From Adineta ricciae (lineage: Eukaryota; Rotifera; Eurotatoria; Adinetida; Adinetidae): DNA of 64,000 bases. The DNA is taken from positions 1-64,000 of the forward strand of contig CAJNOJ010000167.1 in the NCBI GenBank assembly GCA_905250025.1, written 5' to 3'. The notes under the pieces were generated by a model. That model saw only the letters and a program-made list of their open reading frames with translations. It searched no databases and was not told where the DNA came from. Made by a program: the position numbers and the translations under genes. How positions within the stretch are numbered: the stretch's first letter is position 1; each line of letters begins with the position of its first letter. Below, in pieces: positions 14,475 to 41,369 of this stretch.

Positions 14475-15277
14475 TTGAACGTCGATTATGCAAATCAGGC
14501 ATTTTCTGTGCAGGAAGAGAATCACAAAAGAAAATGTGATCAGCTTTTTGACGCTGAAGACAATGAACGCTCTAAAATAGTGGCAAACTTAGATATGGGT
14601 GAATCGGATCATCACCTCTATATCGATTTTATTCCGGAAGATTTCATCGTTTGCGAAAAACAGCAAAGACTTTTCTGTGGTCGTCATGCGCTGCGAGCAC
14701 TTTGCAGAATATCACAATATTTGATGATCAACTTTTGCAGAGTTTAGGCGAAGAGTTAGCAGCACATGAGTCAATCATACGAAATGATATCTATACGACA
14801 GATGATCAATATTACAATACTCATAGTGGATATTATAATATTCAAGTTATCCAAGAAGCTCTAATTAGGCAGTGTAATATAGAGTTGATACAATGGAATG
14901 GATTAAACAGAAGTTCATCGCCGGTTTACGAAAAGATTATTAACAATATTGAATTTATACAAGGCCTATTCATTTATCAACGAGAGCATTACTTTTGTCT
15001 GAGACGATTTGACAATACACCAGACTATTTTTTTATTATTAATTCTTTGAAACCTAAGTGTCATCAGATCATCAAAAAAAACCAAATTCAAGAATATATA
15101 AAGTATATACATGAAGATGGTGGCTCTATTTATATACCTGTTTCGCGTGATATTGTGCATTTGCAAACGATGTCTGCTGATCTGATTCTCTCGTTAATCC
15201 ATCCATTACCACCATCAGAAGCGGACAAAATTAGTTTTAAAATAGATGAGACAAGATTTTTCCTTTCAAAACCCTAA
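14475..15277 (+). CDS. Josephin-type cysteine protease domain at the C-terminus of Helitron copy 1
   Basis: The motif EKQQRLFC (about 14655) matches the Josephin signature EKQ-x4-C, with Gln and catalytic Cys five residues apart as Q9 and C14 in ataxin-3. Then come YYNIQVIQEAL (compare the SIQVISNAL region), REHYFCLRR with the catalytic His, and FFIINSLKP with the catalytic Asn. Josephin proteins are deubiquitinases. The domain lies downstream of the helicase, after a linker and the intron at 14409-14459. A one-base deletion near 14702, just after the catalytic Cys, splits the frame, and an extra A near 14358 separates it from the helicase. Either may be real decay or sequence error. The copy at 28820-29450 is independent support. 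Confidence 0.8.
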
Positions 15278-16262: not shown

Positions 16263-16838
16263 CACTGAAAAAAAAATCCGTCGAATAATCTACCCTTGTA
16301 CTGGTAATTTTTGACGATAAACTCTTGGAGGATATATGCACGTGTGATAAAGCCTTTTAGGGTTTATTGAATATACCGTTCATCAATTAAAGGGTATCGG
16401 GAAATTCTATGGGTATATGTAAGTTATGAAGGAGTTTTTAAGAAGATACTTCAGTGAAAGCATATAGTACTAGCTGATTAACCATTTATCACTGCCTTGC
16501 ATCGACGCAATGATACATCACACTACGATTTGAGGTTTATCATTTTACTTTTCCTGCGGAACCTTTATCACTCTACTAACAAAAGGTTTATTCATATTCC
16601 TTGCGTTAATTAGTATATTATTCCACGGATAAATGTTGATCTTTCTCTCCATGGACGTGCAAGGTTGATTATCCTGCGTGGAAAACTAGTAGCTCGCTTG
16701 CTCCTCTTTGAAGGGTTTATCACAATACGGTTCAGAATTGATGTATTCCTACAATCCAACAGAGGGTTTATCATTTTACGGATGATGGTTGATCACCATC
16801 AGTCTCATGGTCATATGTTTATCATTGCACGAATGTGA

Positions 16839-17146
16839 GTTTATCATGGTCTCCCTTCTCACCATGGGTTTATCATTGCACGGATGGCGGGTTGATCATG
16901 GTCTCCCTCGTGACCATGGGTTTATCATTGCACGGATGTGAGTTTATCATGGTCTCCCTCGTGACCATGGATTTATCATTGCACGGATGTGAGTTTATCA
17001 TGGTCTCCCTCCTGACCATGGGTTTATCATTGCATGGATGTGAGTTTATCATGGTCTTCCTCGTGACCATGGGTTTATCATTGCACGGATGGCGGGTTGA
17101 TCATGGTCTTCCTCGTGACCATAGGTTTATCATTGCATGTATATAA
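16839..17146 (+). repeat. 51-bp minisatellite, six units (copy A)
   Basis: Unit starts are 16839, 16891, 16942, 16993, 17044 and 17096, so units are 51 or 52 bp. Each unit holds two GTTTATCA-like words and a CATGGTC...GACCATG inverted repeat. The array lies in the subterminal zone of the CACTA-like element. It translates without stops because 51 is divisible by three; I do not take it as coding. Confidence 0.9.
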
Positions 17147-17641
17147 AGGTTAATCGTCTTGTGCGAGACTTATTTATGAACGCGTCAAAACTGTTTTATT
17201 CTGGAGGATTTATTCATAGCTCAGCGTTTATAAATTTTCTGTCTGCTATTGGAAGAAAGCTTACAAGAAATCTCTAGTGCACAACGACGTACCGAGTTAA
17301 AATTTGTATTAGCAATGATCAGTATATTGTGCGAAAACAATCTAATGGAGTATGTGACACATTTAGTTTTAACATGTGACATCTTTCATGAAAAAGTTAT
17401 AGTATTCATTTGTTACACGTTTACTACTTCCACATGAAGATATCACCACCTATCGAACATCCCTATTATTAGATAAAACATCTGTGATTAATATAATGTG
17501 GACGGACTAGACACAGTCGAGGTCGAGGACGAAAACAAATAGTAACATCCTTCGTTGCGCACTTCTTTTGTATAATCATAATGAACCTTTCATCGCGTAC
17601 AGACAACATTTCTATTTTTAGATATTGCATATCTTTTTATC

Positions 17642-17720
17642 ATGAACTGGTCCTGTGAACAAGTAGTTGCTTGGTGCAAGTCATTTATCGATGATCATTC
17701 AATTTTATCAAGATTCGAAG
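17642..17720 (+). CDS. SAM-domain gene, first exon, copy A (fragment)
   Basis: ATG then WSCEQVVAWCKSFIDDHSIL, the N-terminal helices of a sterile alpha motif. The exon ends GATTCGAAG followed by GTCAGT, a plausible donor. It is identical to the exon at 31062-31140, where the rest of the gene exists. Here the element is cut by the 'n' at 17784, so no further exon follows. Confidence 0.65.
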
Positions 17721-17784
17721 GTCAGTCAGCTTTTGTTTATCGCGCAGAGGCATGCATATCTTGCTAAAGAAAAGCTCGTTTTAN

Positions 17785-18000: not shown

Positions 18001-18576
18001 CACTGAAAAAAAAATCCGTCGAATAATCTACCCTTGTACTGGTAATTTTTGACGATAAACTCTTGGAGGATATATGCACGTGTGATAAAGCCTTTTAGGG
18101 TTTATTGCATATACCGTTCATCAATTAAAGGGTATCGGGAAATTCTATGGGTACATGTAAGTTATGAAGGAGTTTTTAAGAAGGTACTTCAGTGAAAGCA
18201 TATAGTACTAGCTGATTAACCATTTATCACTGCCTTGCATCGACGCAATGATACATCACACTACGATTTGAGGTTTATCATTTTACTTTTCCTGCGGAAA
18301 CCTTTATCACTCTACTAACAAAGGTTTATTCATATTCCTTGCGTTAATTAGTATATTATTCTACGGATAAATGTTGATCTTTCTCTCCATGGATGTGCAA
18401 GGTTGATTATCCTGCGTGGAAAACTAGTAACTCGCTTGCTCTTTTTTGAAGGGTTTATTATAATACGGTTCAGAATTGATGTATTCCTACAATCCAACAG
18501 AGGGTTTATCATTTTACGGATGATGGTTGATCACCATAAGCCTCATGGTCATATGTTTATCATCGCGCTGATGGGG

Positions 18577-18831
18577 GTTGATCATGGTCTCCCTCCTGAC
18601 CATGCGTTTACCATTGCACGCATGTGAGTTTATCATAGTCTCCCTCGTGACCATGGGTTTATCATTGCACGGATGTGAGTTTATCATAGTCTCCCTCGTG
18701 ACCATGGGTTTATCATTGCACGGATGTGAGTTTATCATAGTCTTCCTCGTGACCATAGGTTTATCATTGCACGGATGTGAGTTTATCATGGTCTCCCTCG
18801 TGACCATGGGTTTATCATTGCATGTGTATAA
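18577..18831 (+). repeat. 51-bp minisatellite, five units (copy B)
   Basis: Unit starts are 18577, 18628, 18679, 18730 and 18781, exactly 51 bp apart. Sequence is as in copy A, with five units instead of six. Confidence 0.9.
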
Positions 18832-19333
18832 AGGTTAATCGTCTTGCGCGAGACTTATTTATGAACGCGTCAAAACTGTTTTATTCTGGAGGATTTATTC
18901 ATAGCTCAGCGTTTATAAATTTTCTGTCTGCTATTGGAAGGAAGCTTACAAGAAATCTCTAGTGCACAACGACGTACCGAGTTAAAATTTGTATTAGCAA
19001 TGATCAGTACATTGTGCGAAAAGAATCTAATGGAGTATGTGACACATTTAGTTTTAACATGTGACATCTTTCATGAAAAAGTTATAGTATTCATTTTGTT
19101 ACACGTTTACTACCTCCACATGAAGATATCACCACCTATCGAACATCCCTATTATTAGATAAAACATCTGTGATTAATATAATGTGGACGGACTAGACAC
19201 AGTCGAGGTCGAGGCCGAGAACGAAAACAAATAGTAACATCCTTCGTTGCGCAATTCTTTTGTATAATCATAATGAACCTTTCATCGCGTACAGACAACA
19301 TTTCTATTTTTAGATATTGCATATCTTTTTATC

Positions 19334-19412
19334 ATGAACTGGTCCTGTGAACAAGTAGTTGCTTGGTGCAAGTCATTTATCGATGATCATTCAATTTTAT
19401 CAAGATTCGAAG
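19334..19412 (+). CDS. SAM-domain gene, first exon, copy B (fragment)
   Basis: Same exon as at 17642 and 31062, ending at a GTCAGT donor. The downstream exons are missing because the segment stops at the 'n' at 19476. Confidence 0.65.
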
Positions 19413-19476
19413 GTCAGTCAGCTTTTGTTTATCGCGCAGAGGCATGCATATCTTGCTAAAGAAAAGCTCGTTTTAN

Positions 19477-22684: not shown

Positions 22685-24858
22685 AACAAAAAGGCGCATG
22701 TACAGAATAATTTGACTTTAGTTCACTTTTTGATATCTGTACTTCTAGTTATTGATTTTGCATCTTTTTTAAAAGACATATAATACGTTGGCAAATATGG
22801 AAGAAACAGAGATGAAAGATGATGAATGTCAACTGAAAAATTCTAATAGTTCGCAAACTTCCGTTAATCAAATGATTCAAATAGGTGCTTCGAATACGGA
22901 AAGTGTCAAGAAAAGAAAAGGAAACCGCAATTCGAAGCCATCAAAGAAACTCAAATGTAATCGAAATTCCAAAGCATCTGCGAGGCAGAAAGCTAATCGC
23001 AATTCCAGACCATCACAGAAACACAAAGTTAATCGAAATTCGAAACCTTGTAAGAAACAGAAAGCTAATCGAAATTGCAAACCTTCAAGAAAGAATCGAA
23101 AGAAAAGTGGACCAACGTTGAATTGCACGAACGCCGAAAACGTCGAAGACGGTGAATCAAATTCATATGAATTTGAAGACATTTGTAAAATTTGCTTGTT
23201 CATTGAGATGGATGATATCATTGAAAATATTTAGATTCTATGAATATTAAAATGAATCTGGAAGAACATTTAGAAAGTGCCGATATATACAATGCATTAA
23301 ATGAAAGGTTTGTTTGCTTTTATCGATTGTTGTTTTCGTTAAAAAAAGGTATGCTTGTTAGATACTTTTCAACGATTCTTCAATTATGGGTGCCTTGTTC
23401 TTGTTGTGGATCATTACATGCTGAAAGTCAGCTACAGAAAGCATCGAGCAAGCACGAATTAGAACATGATGTGGTTGAAGGAGATTTGTTATGTAAAAAG
23501 TGTATTGGTTTCACGGCATCAGAGTATCGTCCTCATTGTTTGTTTGCCCGCGTAAAGAATAAGCTACACATTTGTATGACTCCGGATGAACTAAAATTAG
23601 GTTTTATGGAACAGCGAGCAGTTACACTATCTCATGTGTATATGAGCATTATTGTTGTTCGTGGCCATCAAGCTGCATTAAAAGGACAATAGTCCACTTT
23701 CATGTCGACTCAGATGCAGTAGTAGATCAATTGTTACCATTCCCTCGATGTCATGAATTCTTGGCAGTTGTCCAGGAGAAACCGACGAAGAGCGAAGAAA
23801 TCAGCACGACAGTTACATATTCATTCAGTCCCGTACAAGTTTTAAAGGCACTACTCTATTTGAAACAATATAATCATTTGTATTTCGAAAAACAGATAAT
23901 GACTGTAGAGCAAATGCAACTATTGTTTAAATGTCAAAGTGAAAATATTACTCCGATTAAAATAATCGATAGTTATGCGTATAATAATTCTACAACTACA
24001 GTTCCGTTCATAAACTCATATGATGTTTTGTGTGGTCCGAAGTAATTTAATTTACGCTGCATGATAATTCATTTCCATCAAATATTTTAGACGAGTTATG
24101 TCATGTGCAAAAGATGCAATATGGCAAGTTGAGCCATATTTGGAAGAGCGTTCATATCCTTGGTTATATCCACATGGTAAAGGTGGTGAAGGTGATCCTG
24201 AACGACCTTTAAAAATGAATTTACGAGAGTATTATAAACTGAGATTGAAATCTGTTGATAATCGATGGCAAAAAGATCCAACATGGATTTTTCGAGCACT
24301 TAATATTTTGCAAAGAGATGATTTACGCAAGTCAGTTAATTTTCATGCGAAAAAACGGTTTCAAAACGGGAAAATGTGTTATTTGATATATCCAGGTATG
24401 TTCATTGTTGTTTAACAAAAATTACACAAAGATTTGATTTTACACAAACAAAATGATAGAGAATCATTTGATATAGATATTGGTGGAGTTATTCGTGGTT
24501 CATCTGCATTTTGGAATAAGGCACGTAGACATTTGAGAGCGATGTATGCAACATTGGGAAAACCATTCATTTTTCTTTCTATCAACTTGCAAAATGACAT
24601 CGAATTTTTAACCTATATCGATCCTCAAAAGTTTGGTACAGCAGAAAATCCAGAATGGGATGCGATTTATAATTTATCTAAGGATGAATATTTACTGCTA
24701 GCAAATGAAAATGCGGCACTTGTAGCGCGTATGTGCAAACGTCGAATCGCAGCATTTGAAGAATACATCAAGGACAAGAAACATCCATTTCTCATTGATT
24801 ATGTTGTATCGAACTATTTTATCAAAATCGAATTTCAAAGAGATGGGTTACCTCATTT

Positions 24859-25028
24859 ACCTTGTTTTCCGCCTAAAAATTCATCAATTGCATTTCGATG
24901 AGGAACGTTCAAACATAAAAGAGAATAAATCGATTGAGCAGTATTATCGTGCAAACAAGTGAAAGTAACACATTTCGGATATTGATGCTGACGCATTACA
25001 TGACCCGACGAAAGAACAATACGTGGCA
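24859..25028 (-). other. Inverted fragment of a diverged Helitron helicase-region exon
   Basis: This piece is the reverse complement of a stretch matching about 26180-26343 of the same Helitron, with roughly one difference in ten bases. It stands where the HUH motif should be and ends at the 'n' at 25029. It is either a rearrangement using a third copy or a false join in the assembly. Confidence 0.8.
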
Positions 25029-28000
25029 NAACGACTGAATTACCTGATAAAAATGTTAATCCACTCCTTTTTCAATTAGTTCGAATGTTTCAATGGCATA
25101 TACATACATTCAGTTGCGATAAAAGTAATACTGAAATCGCTATGATTTTGCTTTTGAATTCTTTTATAAGATCATTCATTTGTGAAAATCCGAAGATCAA
25201 AGAAAGAATTCAAAAATTACAAACAGCATAAAGGAAAAGAAGAAACAGGGAATTCCTGTAATTTTAATCGAGACCATGAAGATGAAATTTATGAGAGAGT
25301 TAATCCAGATCATGACATTGATATAATTCAGGCGAATCTGGATAGAAAAGACTTTTTTGAACGTGCGGGATGTCGATACGGGAAACCTGAACCATTGGCT
25401 TCTGGAACTCATTTTCGAACATATAAAGAAGCGAAGATTTTAACTCGAGGTGATCGAGATATTATCTTAAGACGAATAACTGAGGAAGTAATCATTTTCA
25501 GTTTCTGAGTACGATTGTTTTTATTGATGCTGTTAGTCGCGTCGTATCGTACCGTACAATGTTAACTTACTTAAAACATTCAAGTGCAATCAGGACATTC
25601 AAATTGTCACGGATCCATGGGCGGCAGCAGAGTATCTTTTTTCATATGTTAGCAAAGAAGCACATATGGAGAGAGATCTTGTCCAAAAACTAGCTGGATG
25701 TACATGTTCTACAATCGACGAAGCTAAAAAAATTCTATTAAAGGCTGGCAATGCTGTTTTATCGCATAGGCAAATTGGGAAAATTGAAGCTGCATGGATA
25801 GTTTTAGGTAATATTGTCAACTTTTGGAATCTTGTATTTTTTTCGATTGGTAGGCATTCCGTTGTATCGATGTTCAATGGCAACTGTTCATATTTATTTA
25901 TCTTTGCCATGTGATGAAGATCGATTATTGAAAGATAAAAATATTGATACTGCCGTTCTCAGTGATAATGATTTCGTGAAGACAATAGTGGATCGATATT
26001 CAGAACGACCTTTGCAACCAGATACTATTCGTGATCTTACTTTGTTTGAATTTGCAACTTGGTTTTCCATCGAGTACGGTGAATCCGAAAGTGAAAATGA
26101 TGAGTTGAAAAGCAATCCGTTATGGCGAAAAGATTATAATGAATCACCTTTACTCAGAACATATAAACGATTGCCACGGATTGCTCTTTCCTCCGGTCAT
26201 GTAATGCGACAGCATCAACATCCAAAATGTGTTACTTTTACGTGTTTGCACGATAATGCCGCTCAATCAATTTATTCTATTTTATGTTTGAACGTTCCTC
26301 ATCGAAATGCAATTGATGAATTTTTAGGCGGAAAACAAGGTTTGAGACAAAGTTTGACAATAAGGGTAAATGTCTACACAATTTTAGAACCAAGTACATT
26401 TGATTTATACCAATCGCTCGTTCATCATAAAGCAGAGATATGTAAACGAATTGTATCTCTTCCAGAGAGCTATCGGATTCAATTGCAGAATCTCGTAGAC
26501 CATCTAATTAGTATTAATAATGAAAACTTCGCAATTAATTATCGAGAGTCTTATATATTTACCAATCCTAGTGAATTTGAAAGTGAACATGGTGATAATT
26601 CGGTATCAGAAGGTAAACTTGGAGATAAGGTGGAAAATCGGCCAATTAATGATGCATTGGCTGCCGTTGACAATAGCGATGGTAATACATTTGAAGACTT
26701 TAGAGCGTTAAATCGATTGCGTGACTCAGCAAATTCACAGCAGAAATATTTACTCGATTTTATCCAAAATTATTTTGATTGTGTATTAAAACACGTTCGA
26801 CGTCCAAGAGAAGTTCGACAACCAAAACCATTTCATATTGTCGTTAACGGACTTGCTGGCTCCGGTAAATCTTATGTGATTGATATAATTGAGAAAATGA
26901 TGAAAGAGTATTGTATTGCCGAATCCTCTGGAATTTCACGTGCGCGAAAGAATTTTGGTTTACTCAAAATGGCTCATACTGGTAAAGCCGCACTGAATAT
27001 TGGTGGATCGACAATACATTCAGCTTTAGCAATTGTGAGTATATGGTTTATTGTATAAACGTGTAAAGATTATTGTTTAGTGCCCAGACGGTAACTCATC
27101 ACCGAATAATCTAAATTCGTTTAAACTGTATACGTTGCGCAATCGATTATGTGGTTTATTATTAATTATCATCGATGAGATTTCACTTGTTTCGCACTGT
27201 TTACTACAAAAGGTCAACAAACGTTTGAATGAAATTTTTGTGGCGTCGAGTGAATCTGATGTCTATTTCGGCGGGATTTCTGTCCTTGTTTTTGGTGATA
27301 TGGCTCAAATAGAACCTGTTGCTGCGAAACAAGTGTTTTTTCGTCCAAAAGGAGAATTATTTTCGCTGTGGCATGATTTGTTTCGACCTCTCAATTTCGA
27401 TATCAATATGAGACAAGGAGATGATCGATTGTTCTTCGATTGTTTATGTCGTATGCGTATCGGTATGTCATCTGTCAAAATGATTTTTTTTCGTATATAA
27501 ATAATTATTAATCGGTAGGTTGTTTGGATGAACAGATTGAAGCCCTGATAAAGTCTAGGAGTATTCGTAAGGAAGATAATCCATACAGTTTTGAACAACG
27601 ATTGCAAGAGTTACATTCCGTCGAATATAAGGACGCTATATACGCGTATGGTGCTCTTCGGTTGACAAATGCGAGAAATTTACAAATGCTAAAAGAACAC
27701 TGCAGACAGACCAAACATCCAATTTTCATGATAAATGCGTTGGATGTAATGTAGTCGTTTTATCTTTTTTCGTGTAGATAATTGTCCTTGGTTTGTATAG
27801 AAAGTTCCAATGATCGATACGTCATTTTATAAAGTTACGAATGCAAGCAATAAGATTTGTAAAGTAAAATTGAAACCGTCAAATGATGAAAATAAGTGTA
27901 GCTCTCTATATCCTCGTTTACCATTATGTGTTGGAGCACGAGTTCTAATTCGACGAAATATCGACCAAGAGAATTATGTTGTCAATGGAAGTGACGCAAT

Positions 28001-28819
28001 TGTAAAAGAGATTGTATGGGAAGATCCAAAGAATTTTCTTTCACCGCCTATAGCATTAGATGATATCTTTAATTCATTGAATAATGTTATTAATACAAAG
28101 CTACCGAAATATGTCATAGTCGGTGAGAGAAACATTTGTATACGTGTAAATATTTGAGGTCATTTTTCATTCAGAGTTAGATAACGGATTAGAATATAAG
28201 ATAGAACCTCAAGAAACGCGATTCAAAGATATGAACAATGTTAACATGACTCGTTTACAGTTGCCATTTGCTTTGGGCTACGCGATTACGATACATCGAA
28301 CTCAATGTATGACATATCCGAGAATGGTGATAGATTTAGGAGGCAAATACTGGAAGGCAGGGATGTTTTATACAGTTTTGAGTAGAGCTCGACGGATAAC
28401 GAATATCATTCTATTGGCTTATGATCGAAATTCTTTTAAAGTAATTTTGTGTTGATACTGCCATTCGACTGACAAGTAGTTTATTGTTAGGTTTCGAAAG
28501 ATGGGTTGCAAGAAATTGAACGGCTAAAAAAGATAGAAAAGGACAATGCAGTCAGAGTTGGTGATTATTTAGAATGTAAAGTATGTGCAAGTTAACATTC
28601 CCGGGATGATGGTAATTTGTTTTTTGTAATTATAGAGATACGATACCGATCTGAATGCTTCTTGTTACGCTGATACGAATTATGTACATCACAAACATGA
28701 AAAAAGAAAGTATGATTTGAGCAATGATATCGAACAAACTAAGCGATGTAAAGAGACATCAAATGTGGTGCGAAATTGCAGCGATATCCGTTTGAACAAC
28801 AATTTTATCCCAGAAGATT

Positions 28820-29450
28820 TCATTGTTTGTGAAAAAAAGAACGATTATTCTGTGGTCGTCATGATCTTCGTGCAATGCTACAAAATATGGCATTGTTCGA
28901 TGATCAATTCTTGCAAACGTTGGGACGGCAGTTAGCAACGGATGAATTATTGATTCGACAAGACGTACACGCAGTAGATAATTATTATTTTAATATGTAT
29001 ACCGGTTATTACAATATTCAAGTTATACAAGAAGCTCTTAAGAGGCAATGCAATATAGAACTAATACAATGGAATAATTCAGATAGAATTTCCTCGTTTG
29101 TTTATCAAGAAATCATGAATAATATCGAATTTGTGCAAGCTTTATTCGTTCATCTAGCAGAGCATTATTTTTGTGCAAGGAAATTTGATAGTACTCCAAA
29201 TTACTTCTTTATTATTGATTCTCTAAAACCAGGTCTACATAAGACCATTAAGCAAAAAGAAATTCGACAATACATTAATTATTTACATGAGCATAATGGC
29301 TCTATTTATATACCTGTCTCTGGTAGCATTTTACACATGGAAACCATTTCATCCGAACTCGTTTCTTCTCTCATTCATCCACTACCAATATCAGAAGCAG
29401 ACAAAATAACTTTCAAATTGAATGAGAACCGGACTTTCTTGTTTTCATAG
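28820..29450 (+). CDS. Josephin-type domain at the C-terminus of Helitron copy 2
   Basis: CEKK, then (after a one-base slip in an A-rich run near 28835) LFCGRH with the catalytic Cys. Then YYNIQVIQEALKRQCNIEL, AEHYFCARKF with the catalytic His, and FFIIDSLKP, where the Asn of copy 1 is Asp, as I recall for some other Josephin proteins. Copies 1 and 2 differ at many codons yet keep every Josephin landmark, which fits past selection on the domain. The domain ends at the stop at 29450. Confidence 0.8.
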
Positions 29451-30657
29451 TGAACTAATCACAGAATAAGTACAGTCAACAATGAAGCATTTGTTTTGAA
29501 CTGATAGAGTAGTAGTATAACTCCATGGTTGCTAGTTATTTAGATCAATATTTTAATGCTTTACATTTACATTTACCAGTTATCGTACGATCGATATGTG
29601 GAGTATAGGCGGTATTGAGGTTATCATCGGTATACTAAGCATAAGGAGTATTGCGGTCAGGGCTAATATTTACGTATGTCAAAAGCATAATTTCAATCTA
29701 AACTCAGTTTATGTACGAATACGTAGTATAGAAGTATAGATCATTGGTGTGTTTGAACTGAAATTGTTCATTTTAATCATTTTGGTGCAGAAATAAATTA
29801 TTAATGAGGTTGTCCATAAATGTCCTTGGATTGGATTGTATTGATATCTAGTGCCTTAGCTTTTTCATGACAAATACCACAATTTCAACTGCCTCACTAA
29901 GATACTTAAACTTTTACGTTTCGTCTATGCTGAATGCATCGTATGCTGGATATTTTGAGAATTTGAGCACTAGCCCATGCAGTGTGTAAACTTAAGAGGT
30001 CTGAAACTCGCTATAGAGTGGATGGTGCGAGCATCGTTATTGCAGCAGTCGCGGTTGTGGTCCTAAGAGTTCTATTGGTGGTTATATGTCCCGTACTATG
30101 TATAATGGTACTAGCTTCTATATCGAATATCCATGATTTATGGCTCATATGCCGTAATATCTCATATGATATCACCAGACTGTGTAGTTCTTGTTGATCA
30201 ATATAGTTGCATTGGCTCACATAGGGCTAGAAATCGCAATATACACGGGACCAGAGTTGTCGATGTACTGGCAATAGCACTATTCATGCGTATATAGAGC
30301 ATTGTTTGTATATAGCTAATAGCTGGAATGCTTTTTGTAATCTGTGCAGCATGTGTAGTGCGTATAGGTTGCGCACCATGTATAGCTTGTATATCGCTTA
30401 TAGCCTCTGGAGTTTCAGTAGGCTTTAAAGACCTTATATAGTAGCATGTTGTAGCCTTTATAGCCTCTGTAGACTGCTCCCTGTAGCCTAGTCCATCTAG
30501 CTTACATAGTGTATGTAGAGTACTTGAGCTCGTAATGGGTCTAGTGTTTATGGCTAGAATAGGTTCCTTTGACCCTTGGGGGGGGGGGGGGGTCCAACGA
30601 TCGTCGATATAGAACTTACACTCACTATTTTTCTTCGAAAAATAATGTGAGTTCCAC
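29451..30657. other. Spacer with degenerate repeats, G-run and hairpin
   Basis: From about 29950 to 30560 the sequence is made of drifting TATAG/GTAG/TAGC words without a clean unit. A run of about 15 G occurs near 30578. A hairpin with 14-bp arms (ACTCAC-TATTTTTC) lies at 30620-30652. No gene is seen. Confidence 0.5.
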
Positions 30658-30951
30658 AAAAGCAACTGCACCATATACAAATAGTTATCAATCTTCAACA
30701 TCTGCATTACCGAAACGAAATCAAAAAGTTATTGAAATTCATCAATTAAATGAAACATTAAATGATTTGTCTGATACAATCGAAGCGGTTTCTAAAAACA
30801 ATTATCAATTCATGAAAAACTGTGAGAAATACTTCGGATTGATTTCGCCGGAACAAGTGGTTTTATCATTGCCTGGCAAAAGTGTCGAACTTGGTTATTT
30901 TATTCCGATTGATCGAACAATATCAGCAATGTTGAAATCTCAACCACTTCT
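30658..30951 (+). repeat. Partial second copy of a transposase exon segment
   Basis: The 294 bp match 32042-32335 with about 2 percent difference, inside the transposase gene. The copy stops at the 'n' at 30952. It is probably a second allele or copy joined here by the assembler. Confidence 0.85.
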
Positions 30952-31061
30952 NAAACAAATAGTAACATCCTTCGTTGCGCACTTCTTTTGTATAATCATA
31001 ATGAACCTTTCATCGCGTACAGACAACATTTCTATTTTTAGATATTGCATATCTTTTTATC

Positions 31062-34000
31062 ATGAACTGGTCCTGTGAACAAGTAGTTGCTTGGTGCAAG
31101 TCATTTATCGATGATCATTCAATTTTATCAAGATTCGAAGGTCAGTCAGCTTTTGTTTATCGCGCAGAGGCATGCATATCTTGCTAAAGAAAAGCTCGTT
31201 TTACGTTTATGTTAACGAATAGATTATTGTTGTGCATGTTGTAAATTTTTCGTATTAATATACCTTTAGACTAGTTGTCTCCTTACGTTTGCTTAGCAGA
31301 ATAGACCTATGCGCTTGTATAGAAGAAACAAATTGAGTTGTTTGTTATTTCGTGATCCGAGCATTTGCAGTCACGCTTTCCCTATTCATCGATGCATTTC
31401 ACAAATTTGTAGATAAATAAGTTTCTTCGTATCCTTATTGCAAATATATAATTCACTCGATACCGATCACTCGTCTATATCAAAACCAGGATGTCATCAT
31501 TCAGCTGTCCACTTTGTCTAACACATCGGCGTTTCGATAGTTTTGCCAGAATGTTTCAACACATAACATTGTATCATCAAAACGAACCAAATTTCAGTAT
31601 CACATGCGATTTGCATAATGCTTGCGGAGTTTTGTACCGAACATATTCTGCGTATAAAGCCCATGTTTACCGACAACACATATCTGAACTTCATTTGAAA
31701 AACAAACCGAACGACAATCGACAACAAGAAAATATAAATAGTTCAACTGTGAATTCCGAAGTAATCAACAATGGTGATGATACATTTTACTCCGTTTATG
31801 GCACTTTCGAAGAAAATCCTGTTGATGACGATTTGGACGCAAATTTTTGTAATACTGGATCGTTCTTTCCTTCGACTAATGTTGATGAAAGTGTCTCTGA
31901 ATTGCTGTCGATTATTAAACGATCGTACTTGTTGTTCATCTTGGAATTACGCGAAGAATATTTACTGCCACAGGGTGTGACAAATATTATCTCGACGTAT
32001 ATTGTAACACTCCTCCGTCACCTGGAAATTTTACTGAATAAAAAAGCAACTGCACCATATACAAATAGTTATCAATCTTCAACATCTGCATTACCGAAAC
32101 GAAATCAAAAAGTTATTGAAATTCATCAATTAAATGAAACATTAAATGATTTGTCTGATACAATCGAAGCGGTTTCTAAAAACAATTATCAATTCATGAA
32201 AAACTGTGAGAAATACTTCGGTTTGATTTCGCCGGAACAAGTGGTTTTATCATCGCCTGGTGAAAGTGTCGAACTTGGTTATTTTATTCCGATTGATCGA
32301 ACAATATCATCAATGTTGAAATCTCAACCACTTCTCATTGAGATTTTAGAAAATATTCATCAACAGCGAATCACTGTTGATAATGATCCAGATCTGATGT
32401 TTTCAGTGAGAGATGGAATGTATGGTAGTCGATTTGATGAAGAAAGTCTGTTAATCCAATTATATTTGGACGATATTGGTCTCACTAATCCGCTCGGTGC
32501 TAAACGTGATAGACATAAAATGACAATGATTTATTTTTCTTTGGAAGACATGCCAGACAAATATCGTTCGAAACTCGATTTCATTCAGTTAGTTGCTGTT
32601 TGTGAGAGCAAGCAACTAAAGGTAAATTTTTCTAATAAAAATGGAATATGTACTGAGTTGGCAACTGAGTTACAAAGACTCGTTCTAATAGTATCCATGG
32701 AAACAATATCATTCTATATTATTTCTCATTTCTTTTTTGAGAATAATGACAAAGCTCAGCGCTTCTTTGCGCCAATTGTGGAAAATTTGAACAAGTTGCA
32801 ATTGAATGGTATTTCAATCAACGGCGTCCATCTTACATTTTCTTTTTCTACAGTAGTAGCTGACAATTTGGCATCTCATTTTATAGGTGCTTTTCAGTCT
32901 TGTTTTAATGGTGGTTATTTTTGCAGAAGATGTTATATTACTTATCCAGAGAAGAATTTACCAATTTCATTAGAAAAAATTCAAACTCGGTCAATGACTG
33001 ATCACGATAGTCTCGTTGATGAGATCACCAACGATCCTACTGGCACACCGTTGAAGGGTGTCATGGGACCAAGTCCATTACGAGAACTAATTGGTTTTCA
33101 TGCGACGACATCATTACCCCGCGATCTTATGCATGACTACCTTGAAGGAATATGTCCAATGATCATAATGTCGTTACTCAAGCAAGCATCTGCGTTACGA
33201 ATTTTAACATACAGTGAGAATGTTTTTGCCATTTTCAATCCAATTCCGACAGATTTTCTTGCATGAATAGACAGGCATACAACTTTGACATGCAGTGCGA
33301 AATTTTTCCTGAAAATTGCATTTATCTTCTCGTTCGCTTTTTGTCTATCTCGATACTGAAACCAGGGATTGTGTAGACATTAGGATAATTTCAATAAACA
33401 CATTTTATCCGATTTTTAATGAGCTAAGTGTTGAAGAATTAATCTCATTAGCTGAAGATGTGAAATCTGTTTATTCTTTGAGGAACAGCAAGTTTTTGTT
33501 GAAAACCTCAGTAAACCATATTTTTATTGTTCGTTTGAGAAGTACGTTCATACTCATCTTGCTCATGTATACTTTTCGCATTTGAAGTTCGCATACAAGA
33601 ACGTATGGAAGACTTCCAATACGGAAAATTTGATTCCAGCAATCAACCACCTCCATTGCTCGTAAAACATCTTCAAAACGATATTATGGTTGCGACTGCC
33701 TCACAAAAATTATGTTTCTTTCGACTATTTCCGATTATTTTTCATGATATAGTTGATCAACTGCCTTCATTTATAGTATACAAAGTATTACGAGAAATAG
33801 TTGATCTGATATTGTCGTGCCCATTTCGTAGAAAATGGTTGCATACACTCGGTGAATTATGTGAAACTTTCCACGAAATGATGCTGAGCCATTTTCCAGA
33901 TAAAATGACTCCCAAGGTGCATTTTATTAGAGAATATAAGCACACGATTAGTGATTTTGGTCCAGCAGTTAAACAATGGTGCTTTCGATACGAAGGAAAG

Positions 34001-35291
34001 CACTCATACTTCAAGAAGATCACAGTTCGAACCAATAATTTCAAAAATATTCCAAAAATGCTAGTCACTCGTTATCTTCTCAAACAATGTTTAACATTCG
34101 GTCATTTGGCTCGATTGCAATCATCTCAATATCCTGTTGGTATCAAAAAAGTTCGAAGCACTTCGTTTGATTTGCAAATGAAGGACATTCTATTGGCGCA
34201 TTTCAATCATATTGATTTTGACAACGATTTATCGCAATGCAATACATTGATTTGTGGTAATGTTGAATATCGTCGATGTGGAGTGCATGTCATAGGTTTG
34301 AAACCATCGCATGAACAGCCGGTATTCGCTCAGATTATCATGATTATCAAAAAGAATGAGAAATGGTGGTTATTCGTCGATATACTGGACACAGTTTGTT
34401 ATGATGAAAAATTGTCGGCATGGCAAATACAATCTAGAGCTCAGCACACTCTGATTGATCCAAACGACTTAGTGCATTATCACAAAGGACTGGATATTTA
34501 CATAGTAAACAGTTTGAGTTTTATTTCATTTGCATCACGTTTGACATTGCATTAAGCATAGAACAGACAGAAAATGCTTCAAACAAGTATCGTCATATAT
34601 ATTTTGCTATGATTTCCTTTTTAACCTTTCGTTAATCGCTTTTAATTGTTCATACTCATACACCTGACCCTATATCCAGTCTTATTCAATAATAGTGGGA
34701 CGATCTGTTTCACTGATACATGTTCAGATTCATGATCAAAGTGATCACTCATCTGAACTGACAACAATTTTTGATTTGATTTCGTTTTGACATTTTCGGA
34801 GCACCATGATTTTACATTGGTTAATAGTATTCTTTCACGCTGCATGACTTTTCTACATGAAAACACATACTAATCCAATTCTCGAACCTAGTCGAGTATG
34901 TCTTTTAAAAAAGTTTTATTCCTATTATTTCATTTAAACATACAGTTTCATTAATTTCCAGAACATGACGTGGATGGCTCGATGCTCAAGATGCTGAATA
35001 GTGTCGAACGAATATCACAAATAATACCGAAATTGAAACAACAGCTACTTTTCTTGGAAGAGCGAGAGAAATTATTTCGACAAATTGAAGATGGTTCAAT
35101 TTCATGTGATGGTTCATTATCTAATACATCTGTTATATCTAAAACATCAGCATTGAGTTTACTAAATGCTCAAGCACCATCTGGTCTTTCAATTAGTTCA
35201 CAATCATCACCTTCTGCTCATCTATCAAATGCAAATCTTGCGGCAACAATGTCTACAAATAGTTCAATGGTTGATCAAACTATCGCTGCTG

Positions 35292-35334
<43 letters not shown>

Positions 35335-37814
35335 AGATGCACTGCCATCTTTTCCAGATACGTATGAAATACCAGCATTACCGAAAGCTTTGTTGAAAGA
35401 CATCGAAGTTGGAAATCTTAAAACTTTTGGGCCGCATTGTCAGGGTCGACAGATACTAATCGATGCAGTGGTTCACGATCTCATTGAAAATTATGACTTA
35501 CTGTAAGTATTTCTTTCACTGAAACACGCGTAATTGTCATTCTCTTTTATATCTTCTCAGTTGATTTGTTCGTACAGTTTTCCTATAACTTTTCTCGAAA
35601 ATGCCCGCTATTGACTGTTGTAATCGATCGCATTGCTGATTGCTTTTATTTGAATACATATGAGGAAACGAAACGTGAACTGAAATAATTTTCTCTTTAC
35701 TGGGAAACCATCAATTAACAACTATTCTGATATTGGATCAAATCTCTGACTATGTTCCAAAGTTGAACTACCCGCATGAAGCTATCCTTTTTCTCGGAAA
35801 GAGCCGTTTCATCTACTGTTGAACTTCATTTCCATTCTGATCGTTGTTTTTTACTAGTTATTTATCGAAAACACAATACAATACTGTTGGTTCTGCTGTT
35901 GTGCGATGTTTGAGATTACCTTTAACACCGGAGAATGTAGTAAGTATAGACTTACAAATTACAGAATAATTTCTTTTGTTCAATTTGAGGCGATTTGGAA
36001 AGACGCATTACAAACCAAATTCAAACGAACACGTTCTGATCATTCAAACAACAGCCTTGTTCAAGAATTTCGATTGAAATATGCAAATCCGGGGTCAGGT
36101 CGTCCAGTGAAACAGAAAATTGGCTCAGTTGCTGAACGTGATCGACATAAACAGGTATCAAGTCAGTAGGTCTTACTAATCACTCTGTACTTTCTTCTAG
36201 ATGGTGATTATGCATGGTGACAATGAAATATCCGATGAGATTCAGTTGAAGGCGGTACAGTTGTGTGATTTTGATCGATTGGATGTCGATACAAAATTAC
36301 GTTTATGGAGAGAGACATTCGGTTTTCGTCGACAAGCTGTGCGTGATCAGTCGACGAGCGATATTATGAAGAAATTTCCTGCCTACAATGAACCTCATCT
36401 GGTAAATTTGCTCCTCGAGATCATCTCTTTCTATCAAATGGATTATTTTTCATCATAGGTTTTTGAAGAAATAAAAATGTTGGTGGACCTAGATTTAAGA
36501 AAAGAAGTTCGACGGCAAGTTCCCATTCTACTGGATAAATTAGTCGAAACTAATTCATTTATTGCTGGTAAATAAAATGAGTGATAATTGTTCATAAAGG
36601 GCAAATTACTGGTTTTAGATGTACCACCTATTCGATTGATTAAAATCTTATGTCGAAAATTTGGTGAAACCATTCAACATATATTTTGCGAAAAGGTAAA
36701 ATACATCTTCTCCGTGTTAATACTTTTGCTGCAAAACAATTGTGATTTGAACTGAATTAATCTCAATTAGTTAATGACTTATCTAATTGATGAAACACTC
36801 ATAAGCGAGATTTCTACCTGCAGCTTTAAAGAAAGATCTTCACATTATTAGTGATGCTATACCTTCTCTTTGGTCAGTCTGTCTCTTCCGTATGCTCAAT
36901 GACCTGCATTGATTGAAACATGTTCATGTTGAACATTTGCATCATAATGATTTATTTATGACTGATTTTTCTCAACTATAAGTCTCGAATATAAGACGGT
37001 TTTATATCATATCGGCACAAGAAAGTGATCTATGATCGCATGATTCTATTCATTTTTATAGGAGGCACCGACACCGTATCCTACATTAGTCTCAATTGAC
37101 GACGTCATTCACATTTATGTTGATTTCTGTCCGATTCTTTCTACACATTCACCTGATGACGCTCTCGGGCTTCTAATTGGAATGTATTCTGTGTTTGAAC
37201 TTTCATTCGACAAAAAGAGCAGAACAATTCGATTTTTATATTGTGTTTTGCACGGCGATAAACAATTTCTCTCTAATTCAATTCGGGTGTTAATAAAAGA
37301 GAAGAATATTGAGATTCATCGAGAACGTCTTCAACCGCCATCTGTCTCGCCTCATTCTATCTCGACCAATGCGACAATACTTAGCACGGAATCTCAAATT
37401 CAATCACGAATCGTTACGAATTCATCGAGTCAATCCACTGATGAACATAATTCTGCTTTGATTGATCAATCAACGGAACCGGACATTTCGACTCATTCTC
37501 ATTCAATTGTAGACGTTGCCTGTGTCACAGATGAGTAAGTTAGATTTCTTCAGTTCATTAATTTCTCCAACATATTTTCATATAGATTCAATCATAATAA
37601 TGACGATGTGATGCGGTCTGATTGCAGTTCCAAACTTCAAGGAAGAAAGAGACGTAAACGAAAACAAGTTTCGAATGAAGAAGAACAAGATGCGACATTG
37701 ATGAGCAATGCTGGTCAGAAACCTGTTGAATCTTCTCAAAGTCGTCTTCCACTTGCGAATATGACAAATTCATCTGTTACATTAAGACAATCAAAACGTA
37801 GACGACAAATTTAA
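31062..37814 (+). CDS. SAM-domain accessory protein of the CACTA-like element (SAMD3-like)
   Basis: Exon 1 is 31062-31140 and exon 2 starts at 34962. The join reads SRFEE-HDVDGSMLKMLN, restoring a SAM core in frame. Exon 2 (to 35502) continues with IIPKLKQQLLFLEEREKL (coiled coil), an Ala run of about 15 from a GCT repeat, and LPKALLKDIEVGNLKTFGPH. Later exons are approximate: near 35970-36155 (WKDALQTKFKRTR), 36201-36400, 36460-36566, 36620-36695, 37063-37534 and 37587-37814. The C-terminus is basic (GRKRRKRKQ, SKRRRQI) like a nuclear signal. The part after the SAM domain resembles the SAMD3-like proteins common in fish genomes. By analogy to En/Spm TNPA it may bind the subterminal repeats. 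The whole transposase gene sits in intron 1. The exon after 35502 is uncertain. Confidence 0.65.
31491..34555 (+). CDS. C2H2-finger transposase of CACTA type (Transposase_21/tnp2-like)
   Basis: ATG at 31491. The N-terminus has two C2H2-like fingers (CPLCLTHRRFDSFARMFQH..., then CGVLYRTYSAYKAHVYRQH). The middle has LYLDDIGLTNPLGAKRD, comparable to the DGFNPFG block of tnp2 transposases, then FFAPIVENLNKL, VVADNLASHF, YFCRRCYI and LMHDYLEGI, comparable to the D-x-MH-x3-E block. After one or more introns between about 33224 and 33600, the second part has MEDFQYGKFD and GPAVKQWCFRYEGKHSYFK...NNFKNIP, typical of the animal relatives. It would cut and join the transposon ends in the nucleus. It lies wholly inside intron 1 of the SAM gene, same strand. 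A 294-bp piece is duplicated at 30658-30951. Catalytic residues are inferred by position only. Confidence 0.7.
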
Positions 37815-40184
37815 TCTCTGGCTAATTTTATTCGAGAAGCCGATCCAATCATTTTACTCGTTCTTTCTTCTTCTTCTTCTCAATCGACCTTTTTTCTCAT
37901 GATTGGTTTCTTTCATTATTCATATTTTCACTATTTTCTTCGTCTCAGTTACTGGATTGTGTTACATTCGTTCAAAATATAATCAAATCTATAGATGGAT
38001 AGTCGAACTGAGTTTAAATTCATGCAAAGCCATCACATGAGAGAAACCACTTACTCATATATGTAATGTGATGAAGCTCAAGAAATTTCGATTTCCGTTT
38101 GCTTTTCGAATTCTCAATTCTTGCTTTCATCGTTTCAACTATTTACTCGCTTTGGATGCTCAACAAGCATGAATAATGTAACTATCTATTCTTCATCAGC
38201 CAATTCACGAATTCTGTTATGCTCTCTTACTCTGTATCTGCAATAACAATGTCAAAATTTCCAGCATTCCAAATTTTTATAATTGCAGAATCCATCAATT
38301 TCTTCAGATGGAACTCAAGCAATGGTATCATCTGAATAATATAACGTTGGCATCTAACTTTGTCAGCTCTATTATCTTCGTCAGCACTATTAATCCAGTG
38401 TTGACTCGATCACAAAATGAACCGCCGCTATCGTCAATAATGGCTCTCCATCCTTAGCCAATTTGTGCACGTCAACGAGATCGGATATTAAACGATGTCT
38501 CGAATCAATGAAGAATCATTTACTTGTGTTCATGCAAAACAAGAAACAACACGGTAAGTGATGCATATTCTCTGAATTTTCTTCCTTTCTTTTTATATTT
38601 AGTCAAGCTGCTTGACTGAAGCAGTTGATTACGTATGATCTCACATCTCTCGTTTTTGCTGTAAGTTTTGAAAAATACAGTACAGATGATTTGGCGGGTG
38701 GCGAACAGAACAATCAACTATTTATTTCGATTAACTTCAAGCAAAAAAATATTTTGGTGAGTGACATATTGCTTTTTAATTCTCTTTCTTTCTTTTCATA
38801 TTTAGTTTCTGTACGCGCACAATGTCATCAATGGAATCATATGATACTGCGATCATCNGATCTCACATCTCTCGTTTTTGCTGTAAGTTTTGAAAAATAC
38901 AGTACAGATGATTTGGCGGGTGGCGAACAGAACAATCAACTATTTATTTCGATTAACTTCAAGCAAAAAAATATTTTGGTGAGTGACATATTGCTTTTTA
39001 ATTCTCTTTCTTTCTTTTCATATTTAGTTTCTGTACGCGCACAATGTCATCAATGGAATCATATGATACTGCGATCATCCTGGTGACTTTGAGTTATATC
39101 AATTACAATTATTTACTTTTATCGATTCGATATCAACTACATAAGATGGTGACACTCATGGTAAGTGAAGCTCTTCGTTTTCATTTCTTTCGTAAATCTA
39201 TTAATTTATCCGTCGTCTTCACATTATCGCGCGATATAATGGTTTAGTTATTTCAAACATGATTTCTTTTATTCTTCGATGAGTTACCAAACTTTCAATT
39301 CAGTACGTTGACCCATTCATGCAACATTGACTCACTCTCTTACTTTTGTCCACATAAGTTTATCCTTTTTGGCCAGTTAACTTCTGTCTTTGCGATACTT
39401 AATCAAGCATTGTGTGAAATATTCCTCTTGAACAAAGCGAAAGGAACTTCCTTCTTATCTTTCCCTAATGTGCCGTATTCTAATTATTGGCCGCCTTTAT
39501 TAACATAGAATATTCCTTCTCTTCTATGAAATCAGTGAGCGATAGTCGATGTTCTTCCTATAAATATTTCTCAAAATGAAATAGCCACCGTTATTCTAGC
39601 TCTTTTAAGTTGCTGAGACCGCATTTTCTTTCATCATTTCAATCTTACATGATTTCCTTCGCCTCATTCATGTCCAGTACATCACTGAGTACGATCATAC
39701 TAACGTCCGACCGTATACTGACCTGCGCTAATAATTTCCGTTAACCTTCTCTCCTTTATTCTTATGCATTCTATGTGCTCCGAATCTGTCACAACAAACA
39801 TCACGAGCGCGCCTGCGCCATAGATATATTCTTTCTTACAAACACATCTGACCGAACGTTGAATGCCGCAGCATCTTCTCTTGGAATCATGGTCTCAGTA
39901 TTTAGGTTGTCAAAGCCGTGAGAGAATACTATTCGTCTCAGCTCCTCTGTGTTTCTATCATCATCTATCATCCTTCTTTTCATACCATAAATATGCCGGA
40001 CACGCTTTCCTAGTCGCACTCATCCTAGCTTAAGATATGTGGCAGTCAGCGATAATAGCTTACCAGACAAAACACATTATGAACAGAGTTTTTTTATTCC
40101 AAAAGGCGCTTCGTGTCTAAATATGATGTTGACAAACTTCATGATAGTTGATCAACTAATTGCAATACTGTTTTATCTACTTTC
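37815..40184. other. 3' region of the CACTA-like element, no clear gene
   Basis: No convincing gene. Short open stretches with GTAAGT-like donors occur around 38650-39180 but match nothing I know. The region contains the 221-bp duplication at the 'n' at 38858. Confidence 0.45.
38637..39079. repeat. 221-bp exact direct repeat around an 'n'
   Basis: 38637-38857 and 38859-39079 appear identical and are separated only by the 'n' at 38858. This is the signature of overlapping contig ends that were joined without merging, so the true sequence probably has one copy. Confidence 0.9.
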
Positions 40185-40288
40185 AGGTAGTTGATGGACG
40201 TGATGAACCAAATGGAATACTTTTCCGTCAACCTCTAGGTAGTTGATGGAGGTGATGAACCAAATGGAATATCCTTCCATGAACCTTT
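40185..40288. repeat. 52-bp tandem repeat, two units
   Basis: Units 40185-40236 and 40237-40288 both begin AGGTAGTTGATGGA and carry GATGAACCAAATGGAATA. They lie near the right end of the CACTA-like element. Confidence 0.85.
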
Positions 40289-40641
40289 GAGTCGTTGATT
40301 CAGTTGCTAAACGTTTGAGACTAAGTTTAATATTATAGTGCAAAGATATTTTACGAGAATATACGCATTTATAAACGAATAGGTCTATTTAAAAAAAACA
40401 GTTCTTCATTTTGTTCTACCCTTGAAAAAGGTTTATCAGAGTGCAACGTGTGACAATCCCTTAAAAGTTTTTCAAAGAGATAATCGTTTAAATAAACCTT
40501 TTGATGTACGATTAGTTGGTCTGATAAACGGAATTTGCGACTGAATCAAAGGGTATTTATAGGAGTTTATCATGCTCCGAAAAACGTTTAAAAGGGTTTG
40601 TGACCCGTTGCACTCTGATCAACTTTTTAAGGGTACATCAA

Positions 40642-40663
40642 TCGACGAATTTTTTTTTCAGTG
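40642..40663. repeat. Right terminal inverted repeat of the CACTA-like element
   Basis: Its reverse complement, beginning CACTGAAAAAAAAATTC, matches the left termini at 16263 and 18001 in 21 of 22 bases. The outermost bases are CACTG. Confidence 0.8.
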
Positions 40664-40845
40664 TGGGGTCTTCAAAGCTGGATAGGAGATTTAAAAAGTT
40701 AGGTGATTTCCTGGGAGAAAACTAAGGTCGAAAATCGTTATTTTTGAAAAATTTCATTTATGTTTCACTTGTTCTACACGAATGCTTTGCTCTAAAGGGC
40801 TGAAATTTATAGGATATATAGATGGTACTAGGATGTACTTTTGTT

Positions 40846-40916
40846 GNNNNAGTGTTTCAGTGGTAGAATGTTCGCTTAGGGAGCGAGCGACCCAGGTTCG
40901 ATTCCTGGCTGGGCCC
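40846..40916 (+). tRNA. tRNA-Pro (AGG)
   Basis: The anticodon stem TTCGC/GCGAG encloses the loop TTAGGGA, anticodon AGG at 40878-40880. T arm: CCAGG-TTCGATT-CCTGG. The 3' acceptor strand CTGGGCC needs 5' GGCCCAG; the sequence shows G, nnnn, AG, so the four masked bases fall in the acceptor stem. Discriminator is C, usual for eukaryotic tRNA-Pro. No intron. Confidence 0.9.
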
Positions 40917-41298
40917 CATTTTTTTTACTCGTATCCTTTTGCAGTGTACATACAGTAAACATTGATTGCTAGATGATCAACAGCCTTTTTTTTCTATCCG
41001 ATTAAGCGTTATAATAGGGCACCTGAATTTTTGGAAAACAATACGATAAAAATTTTCCACAGAGGCGCAATTCACTATATAGAATAGTAAACTATTCTAC
41101 AGAAAGATAAAATTTAAAAGGAACCATAGTTACTTGCTTTCTCTCATTGAAATATGACTCATTTCTTTGCGTTATTGCATCATAAGAGAACGGTAGAATG
41201 TGAAATGCTATATGCTATTTGATGAATAGGATGCATTTTAGAAAAAAGTGGAAAAAAGATGTCGATTGTAGAAAAAGAAATGAGAGAGAAAAAAAACT

Positions 41299-41369
41299 GG
41301 GCCCAGCCAGGAATCGAACCTGGGTCGCTCGCTTCCGAAGCGAACATTCTGCCACTGAAACACTAAGCC
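41299..41369 (-). tRNA. tRNA-Pro (CGG)
   Basis: On the minus strand the acceptor GGCTTAG pairs with CTGGGCC (with G-T pairs). The anticodon loop TTCGGAA gives anticodon CGG (41335-41337), and the T arm is the same as in the tRNA at 40846. The two genes converge, 382 bp apart, and differ mainly in the anticodon loop and acceptor 5' strand, so they are a local inverted duplication. Confidence 0.92.

Follow-up and report, generated by a model that had tools for sequence, protein, structure and literature searches.

Is a transposase gene that lies within the first intron of another gene the result of a chance insertion, or is it the working organisation of a transposon? The question is raised by the window analysed here, a stretch of 64,000 nucleotides (positions 1 to 64,000 of the forward strand) of contig CAJNOJ010000167.1 of the rotifer Adineta ricciae (C167; other contigs carry similar handles), in which a transposase gene sits inside a gene for a protein with a SAM-like domain. 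The nesting of the two genes is confirmed, and the window locus and its relatives are a real, conserved two-gene CACTA family of the A. ricciae genome. We favour, at a probability of roughly 60%, the reading of an autonomous-type cut-and-paste CACTA (En/Spm, CMC) transposon with two interlocked genes, in which the SAM-type protein would be a TNPA-like partner of the transposase. In maize En/Spm, tnpA has 11 exons and the transposase reading frame lies in its intron 1; TNPA binds the subterminal repeats, and transposition needs both En/Spm proteins (PMC2613891; this and the other papers cited are represented by the portions of their text that were available).

The two genes are laid out in the window as follows:

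31062..31140, + strand: exon 1 of the SAM-type gene, first 26 codons, phase 1, donor GTCAGT
31141..34961, + strand: intron 1 of the SAM-type gene, 3,821 bp, enclosing the complete transposase gene
31491..32621, + strand: transposase exon 1, two N-terminal C2H2-like Cys/His sets, motif LYLDDIGLTNP
32742..33213, + strand: transposase exon 2, motifs ADNLASH, CRRC and MHDYLEG
33588..34555, + strand: transposase exon 3, running to the stop codon
34962..35502, + strand: exon 2 of the SAM-type gene, remainder of the SAM-like domain, variable linker, beginning of the conserved middle region
35858..37814, + strand: exons 3 to 9 of the SAM-type gene, conserved middle and C-terminal regions and basic tail; gene model, with intron phases that match relatives
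35858-35939, 35990-36154, 36201-36401 and 36459-36567, + strand: exons 3 to 6 of the SAM-type gene (gene model)
36619-36695, 37062-37534 and 37586-37814, + strand: exons 7 to 9 of the SAM-type gene (gene model)

The model of the SAM-type gene thus spans 31062-37814, its nine exons being separated by GT-AG introns, and encodes 651 amino acids. The junction of 31140 with 34962, proposed in an earlier sequence-only reading of this DNA, is borne out: the GTCAGT donor is paired with an acceptor ending in TTTCCAG, and the two exons join in frame to give SRFE-EHDVDGSML. The same reading placed the transposase at 31491-34555, on the same strand inside an intron of about 3.8 kb, which stands. It is not a single open reading frame: the gene has three exons, with 856 codons open, and introns at 32622-32741 and 33214-33587, the first of which, at 120 bp, is open by chance.

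The layout recurs across the genome. Searches of the window's own assembly (130.5 Mb, 1,033 contigs; hit counts are lower bounds) were made with two versions of transposase exon 3, one from the window and one from a distant copy, and with the N-terminal part of the SAM-type protein. Transposase exon 3 was located at at least 15 places, spread over 14 contigs. In 12 of these 15 places the exon is preceded by SAM exon 1 and followed by SAM exon 2 on the same strand, which is the En/Spm-type organisation with the transposase in intron 1 of a second gene, splicing being read from sequence (C167, C637, C794, C648, C708, C317, C643, C779, C419a, C882, C292 and C220). C419b has lost most of the transposase through an internal deletion and retains SAM exons 1 and 2, C668 is a decayed broken fragment around which the 10 kb covered contain no SAM gene, and C519 has SAM exon 2 downstream, its upstream side being outside the sequence read. 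C687 and C417 hold only exon 1 and a 5' part of the transposase, the former with stops and the latter at a contig end. The acceptor AG of exon 2 is retained in 13 of 13 cases and the donor GT of exon 1 in 14 of 15 (C419b is the exception), and the phases of the first seven introns of the SAM-type gene (1,2,0,0,0,1,0) are identical in eight copies (C167, C637, C794, C648, C708, C643, C779 and C882). Identity of exon 3 to the window falls to 36% in C882, 35% in C220 and 32% in C292; the nested order is kept even at this distance, indicating that the layout is old.

Some exons of distant copies required special treatment. Exon 1 of C292, missed by tblastn with the window's exon 1, was found by a spliced-alignment script and a profile that contained C292 itself. 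The script's output also included false introns at the beginning of C317, a start that came late in C220 and deviating phases in C292. For C317 and C220, the first two exons were placed by hand; the hand-placed exon 2 positions were off by 2-3 bases in one analysis, and the acceptors were confirmed separately. Alignment A1 contained 10 copies and A2 and A3 six each (the C292 row in A2 was cut at 487 amino acids), and the comparison of gene distances used 11. A candidate intact SAM-only element on C1013 was rejected, its reading having stops and a frame break. On contig C419, 38644-44450 (L022) is a deletion derivative with a CACTG left end, exon 1 without its donor, an exon 3 remnant of the transposase, and later SAM exons with one stop and frame breaks, and at 29890-35005 (L021-L022) about 5 kb of extra sequence, perhaps another insertion, lies within transposase exon 1 of C419a. 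Pattern scans of viral contigs and prokaryote genomes gave no relatives among the matching stretches.

Membership of the CACTA superfamily is supported by the CACTG ends, a 2-bp target duplication and a profile match to Transposase_21, and the earlier reading of a CACTA-like transposon holds on the same evidence. A direct Pfam scan gave a Transposase_21 match in none of six copies of the transposase. Compared by hhalign with six Transposase_21 members from the same genome (six of eight fetched loci, drawn from at least 20 matches, two loci having been dropped before alignment), the six copies matched with a probability of 92.4 and an E value of 5.2e-7, and LYLDDIG, ADNLAS and CRRC align between the two sets; the relation is therefore visible at the profile level only. 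The transposase profile had no match in PDB. Residues D327, D418 and E512, putative members of the catalytic triad of a DDE fold, are invariant in all six aligned copies, as are the N-terminal Cys and His residues. The Transposase_21 matches themselves (at least 20, including C835, C346, C555, C618 and C246) constitute a second CACTA-type group in this genome with a related transposase core. There is no SAM gene in the 8 kb around C618 or around C246 (2 of 20 matches), so the SAM partner seems to be confined to the C2H2 clade rather than common to all CACTA elements here.

The ends of the element are arranged in the window as follows:

16263..17783, + strand: left end, copy A, 93% identical to copy B; the flank before CACTG differs, and a single N at 17784 cuts it off
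16817..17137, + strand: left array of copy A, period 51 bp, 6.3 units, GTTNATC cores
18001..19475, + strand: left end, copy B, with CACTG terminus, array and SAM exon 1, ending at a single N at 19476
18555..18822, + strand: left array of copy B, period 51 bp, 5.3 units
40185..40299, - strand: right array, period 52 bp, GTTNATC cores, sequence unlike that of the left array
40659..40663, - strand: right terminus CAGTG with a 31/35 terminal inverted repeat; TG at 40664-40665 is the target duplication

The left termini at 16263 and 18001 begin CACTGAAAAAAAAATCCGTCGA, and the inverse of this sequence ends at 40663 with 31 of 35 bases matching. The right terminus at 40663 had been correctly predicted. 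The left terminus had been put at 30953, which proves to be an assembly join with a single N at 30952, the true left ends being those at 16263 and 18001. Single Ns at 17784, 19476, 30952 and 38858 adjoin repeated sequence of 221 or 251 bp; for example, 30953-31203 recurs at 17533-17783 (100%) and at 19225-19475 (99.6%). The single-N positions are assembly joins that yield false tandem copies, and as a result the window displays a single body and a pair of left ends. The evidence on which of the two goes with the body points both ways: the flank favours B, and identity over the 251-bp overlap is 100% with A and 99.6% with B. If B belongs to the body, the element would be about 10.7-10.9 kb long; contiguous relatives measure 10.6 and 12.4 kb. 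The left flank of B and the right flank together match uninterrupted repeats in C161 (L029) and C749 (L030), from which the 2-bp TG duplication follows; C161 and C749 are paralogous repeats and represent another locus. The right flank from 40664 is itself a dispersed repeat (C161, C749 and also C565), the source of these empty sites.

Inverted pairs of CACTG ends, with G rather than A as the fifth base, are present in the window, C708, C779 and C643. Between their CACTG ends C708 (10265-20817; 10,553 bp) and C779 (4481-16857; 12,377 bp) are uninterrupted by N, and both contain the SAM-type gene and the transposase gene, so the two genes do occur within one pair of termini in elements elsewhere. 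TA stands on both sides of C779 and of C643 (15858-31514). C643 also contains 222-bp near-exact pairs of the same kind as the join repeats of the window.

Subterminal repeats occur at both ends of six copies (the window, C637, C708, C794, C779 and C643), counting a left array in C637 taken from autocorrelation and a right array in C708 from a separate scan, which the Tandem Repeats Finder survey does not list. That survey, of 258.8 kb made up of the window and the stretches around the copies, returned 15 arrays (16 rows) with a period of 51-52 bp, each located in an element end or immediately 5' of exon 1: three in C167, two each in C794, C419 and C779, and one each in C637, C648, C708, C317, C643 and C417. 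Twelve of the 15 lie inward of an identified terminus, and three (C648, C317 and the left array of C794) lie upstream of exon 1 where no terminus was identified. The signal of a right array in C687 is weak. The period is 42 bp in the right array of C643 and in one C419 array (45.1-45.6 kb). Array sequences differ between left and right and among families. The core GTTNATC is present in 13 of 17 arrays, where 0.0-0.8 occurrences would be expected in each. A period of 51-52 bp corresponds to about five helical turns, and the 42-bp array of one subfamily to about four.

The assignment of the second protein to SAM is tentative and visible only at the profile level. The Pfam model SAM_Ste50p scores 19.4 bits against a cut-off of 21 and is weak in four of six members, so the SAM identity given in the sequence-only reading falls short of the Pfam threshold and shows only as profile similarity to SAM proteins. 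With a profile of the N-terminal part from 10 copies, 26 PDB sequences matched at E ≤10 (best E 0.017); 24 of the 26, and all of the top 19, belong to SAM-bearing proteins. The protein also has a conserved middle region and a tail that are rich in Lys and Arg. Fish gene models, among the vertebrate 'SAM domain-containing protein 3-like' predictions and animal EnSpm transposases, presumably resemble it in how their SAM, middle and C-terminal motifs are ordered.

Purifying selection on both the SAM-type and the transposase gene is supported by their substitution patterns. Between C637 and C794, the ratio of nonsynonymous to synonymous substitutions (dN/dS) is 0.22 for the SAM-type gene and 0.21 for the transposase; the right flanks of these two copies, 479 and 2,000 bp, give no blastn match with each other at E ≤10. 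Within the SAM-type gene of this pair, constraint is seen in the SAM-like domain (dN 0.025, dS 0.64) and in the middle regions, and the linker (dN 0.23, dS 0.24) and tail (dN 0.22, dS 0.28) are near neutral. The other gene comparisons with dS <1 (n=6) give dN/dS of 0.18-0.32; two of them involve C419b, a decayed copy. The protein distances of the SAM-type gene and the transposase gene are closely correlated, with a Mantel r of 0.986 over 11 copies and of 0.951 (p 0.0006) over eight close copies. Splice sites, open frames and a dN/dS of about 0.2 in both genes together support the view that two functional genes have been diverging together.

The architecture gives good grounds to infer that the SAM-type protein is the animal counterpart of TNPA, and a TNPA-like role is likely. 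A promoter left of exon 1 would yield a pre-mRNA from which the SAM-type protein would be made once intron 1 is spliced out; with intron 1 kept, or with transcription initiated inside it, the transposase would be made instead. The SAM-type protein would bind the 51-52-bp arrays at the element ends, probably as a multimer formed through the SAM-like domain, and would bring the ends together for the transposase; through nearby binding it may also regulate its own promoter. In the compact relatives C882 and C220, the frame of unspliced exon 1 runs into a stop codon at intron bases 6-8 and the ATG of the transposase occupies intron bases 11-13, leaving a spacing of 2 nucleotides (TAA AA ATG in C882, TGA CC ATG in C220). 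Such spacing is suited to translation that terminates and then reinitiates on unspliced transcripts, in which case splicing would choose the protein. A bolder formulation, which we put forward tentatively and consider doubtful, is that of a new CACTA lineage in which the splicing of one intron toggles between transposase and SAM-type protein and the latter polymerises on helically phased repeats, the spacing of the repeats rather than their sequence being selected.

Several observations weigh against the transposon reading or against parts of it. C708 lacks a target duplication, and C643 holds three Ns inside. No terminal inverted repeat and no 51-52-bp array were found in the readable sequence of the distant copies C882, C220 and C292, whose ends may lie beyond it, and no right array was found in C648 or C317. 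The array survey covered element surroundings, not the genome at large. The GTTNATC core was selected after inspection of the arrays, is missing from four arrays of the C643/C419 subfamily, and runs in the opposite sense in the right array of C779. The transposase has one stop in C882 and four in C220, which marks these as old copies. In the window's clade (eight copies) the transposase ATG lies 350-411 nucleotides beyond the donor with 5-10 ATGs intervening, so simple intron retention would translate the transposase poorly and an internal start is more likely there. Poly(A) signals between the transposase and exon 2 number 2 against 6.0 expected (P 0.077), which is not significant, and depletion of such signals was rejected as support. 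The SAM and transposase trees disagree at some nodes, and the transposase's own C2H2 fingers could be what binds the arrays.

Two other roles can be envisaged for the SAM-type protein. It may be a regulator or anti-silencing factor that acts on element ends or chromatin and is dispensable for the cutting and joining complex, a role that we consider unlikely but take seriously: the solved SAM profiles closest to it include those of Scm, Atherin/SAMD1, L3MBTL3 and Polyhomeotic-like, all chromatin proteins, and SAM polymers are present in Polycomb-type proteins. Anti-silencing proteins encoded by plant elements are known (VANC; PMC10398659), and TNPA has regulatory roles too (PMC2613891, PMC1636069). 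Retention beside the transposase and parallel divergence suit a transposition partner at least equally well, however, and the regulatory and transposition roles are compatible with each other. Less probable again is the idea that the N-terminal C2H2 fingers of the transposase bind the arrays and the SAM-type protein serves only as a scaffold that multimerises the transposase. The invariance of those Cys and His residues fits this idea, as does the Pfam scan, which recognises no DNA-binding domain in the SAM-type protein; on the other hand, the Lys/Arg-rich middle region and tail of that protein could contact DNA, and in En/Spm it is the second protein that binds the arrays (PMC2613891).

That the SAM gene belongs to an ordinary host family in which a transposon once landed in the first intron, or is a captured host gene carried as a passenger, appears very improbable. 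Its many introns are what a host gene might have, and SAM domains are frequent in animal genes, but in the contiguous copies C708 and C779 the gene lies within the CACTG ends, the flanks are unlike between copies, none of the SAM matches listed is clearly outside an element, and the dN/dS of the SAM gene resembles that of the transposase. Misjoined contigs do occur, as the single-N joins beside repeats (including 17784, 19476, 30952 and 38858) make plain, but to explain the nesting itself as such an artefact is scarcely credible, since 31062-37814 is free of N and the same order, uninterrupted by N, is seen in C708, C779 and C637. The transposon with a TNPA-like SAM partner thus remains our preferred reading.

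Other features of the window lie beside the element. A Josephin (ataxin-3-like) frame at 28833-29450 (Pfam E 8.4e-18) lies in the block 23636-29427, which matches 9537-15251 piecewise at 72-77%, an old duplicate pair that flanks the left ends. A 22.7-kb element enclosing the Josephin gene between 19476 and 30952 was rejected: the join duplicates 251 bp and the contiguous relatives measure 10.6-12.4 kb, so that a misplaced middle piece is the likelier, though unproven, explanation. To the right, tRNA-like stretches at 40851-40926 and 41289-41364 are inverted and 93% complementary, of which ARAGORN calls the second only, as tRNA-Pro (cgg) at 41299-41369.

The rotifer element resembles En/Spm in its CACT-type ends, in the position of the transposase in intron 1 of a many-exon second gene, and in its subterminal repeats (PMC2613891, PMC1636069). 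It differs in ending in CACTG instead of CACTA, in the SAM-type second protein, in a target duplication of 2 bp where plant CACTA elements have 3 bp (PMC4158355), and in arrays with a 51-52-bp period where En-1 has a 12-bp motif (PMC2613891). In soybean Tgmt* and Antirrhinum Tam1, too, a single transcription unit yields products of two kinds, and their second proteins are mutually dissimilar, TNPA and TNP1 of Tam1 having little sequence similarity (PMC2613891); these plant elements are 20.5 and 17 kb long, and the available portion of the text mentions no SAM-like domain. Among animals, SmTRC1 of Schistosoma mansoni is a CACTA element that has alternative transcripts and shows a 2-bp duplication at 7 of its 14 copies, and for which a TNPA-like second product without detected relatives has been proposed; in contrast to the rotifer element it is 4.5 kb long and its ends start with CCC (PMC1636069). 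The word SAM is absent from the available text of that paper.

A second open reading frame is usual in full-length CACTA elements (PMC4158355). Capsaspora CACTA elements have 3-bp duplications (PMC4007536), red-algal elements have 4-5 open reading frames (PMC6431247), and Daphnia has CACTA elements as well (PMC2884549); in the available portions of these papers a SAM partner is not mentioned for Capsaspora or Daphnia, 'SAM domain' is absent from the red-algal account and 'TnpA' from the Daphnia account. A SAM partner for CACTA elements was likewise found among none of the matches listed in the open-licence PMC literature, as represented by titles and the starts of abstracts and with Repbase reports outside it, which agrees with the earlier remark that a SAM-type accessory subunit had not been described for this superfamily.

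Plant CACTA elements require a second protein that binds their ends, and such proteins vary between families. In animals, the portions of the literature covered have so far offered a candidate second protein without a known domain. The A. ricciae family adds an animal CACTA element in which the second protein, closely linked to the transposase, carries a SAM-like domain and is encoded by a gene of conserved structure. Its layout suggests that the nested, splice-controlled arrangement is either ancient in the CACTA superfamily or was reached twice. With array spacing retained while array sequence changes, the way in which the second protein organises the element ends becomes directly testable.

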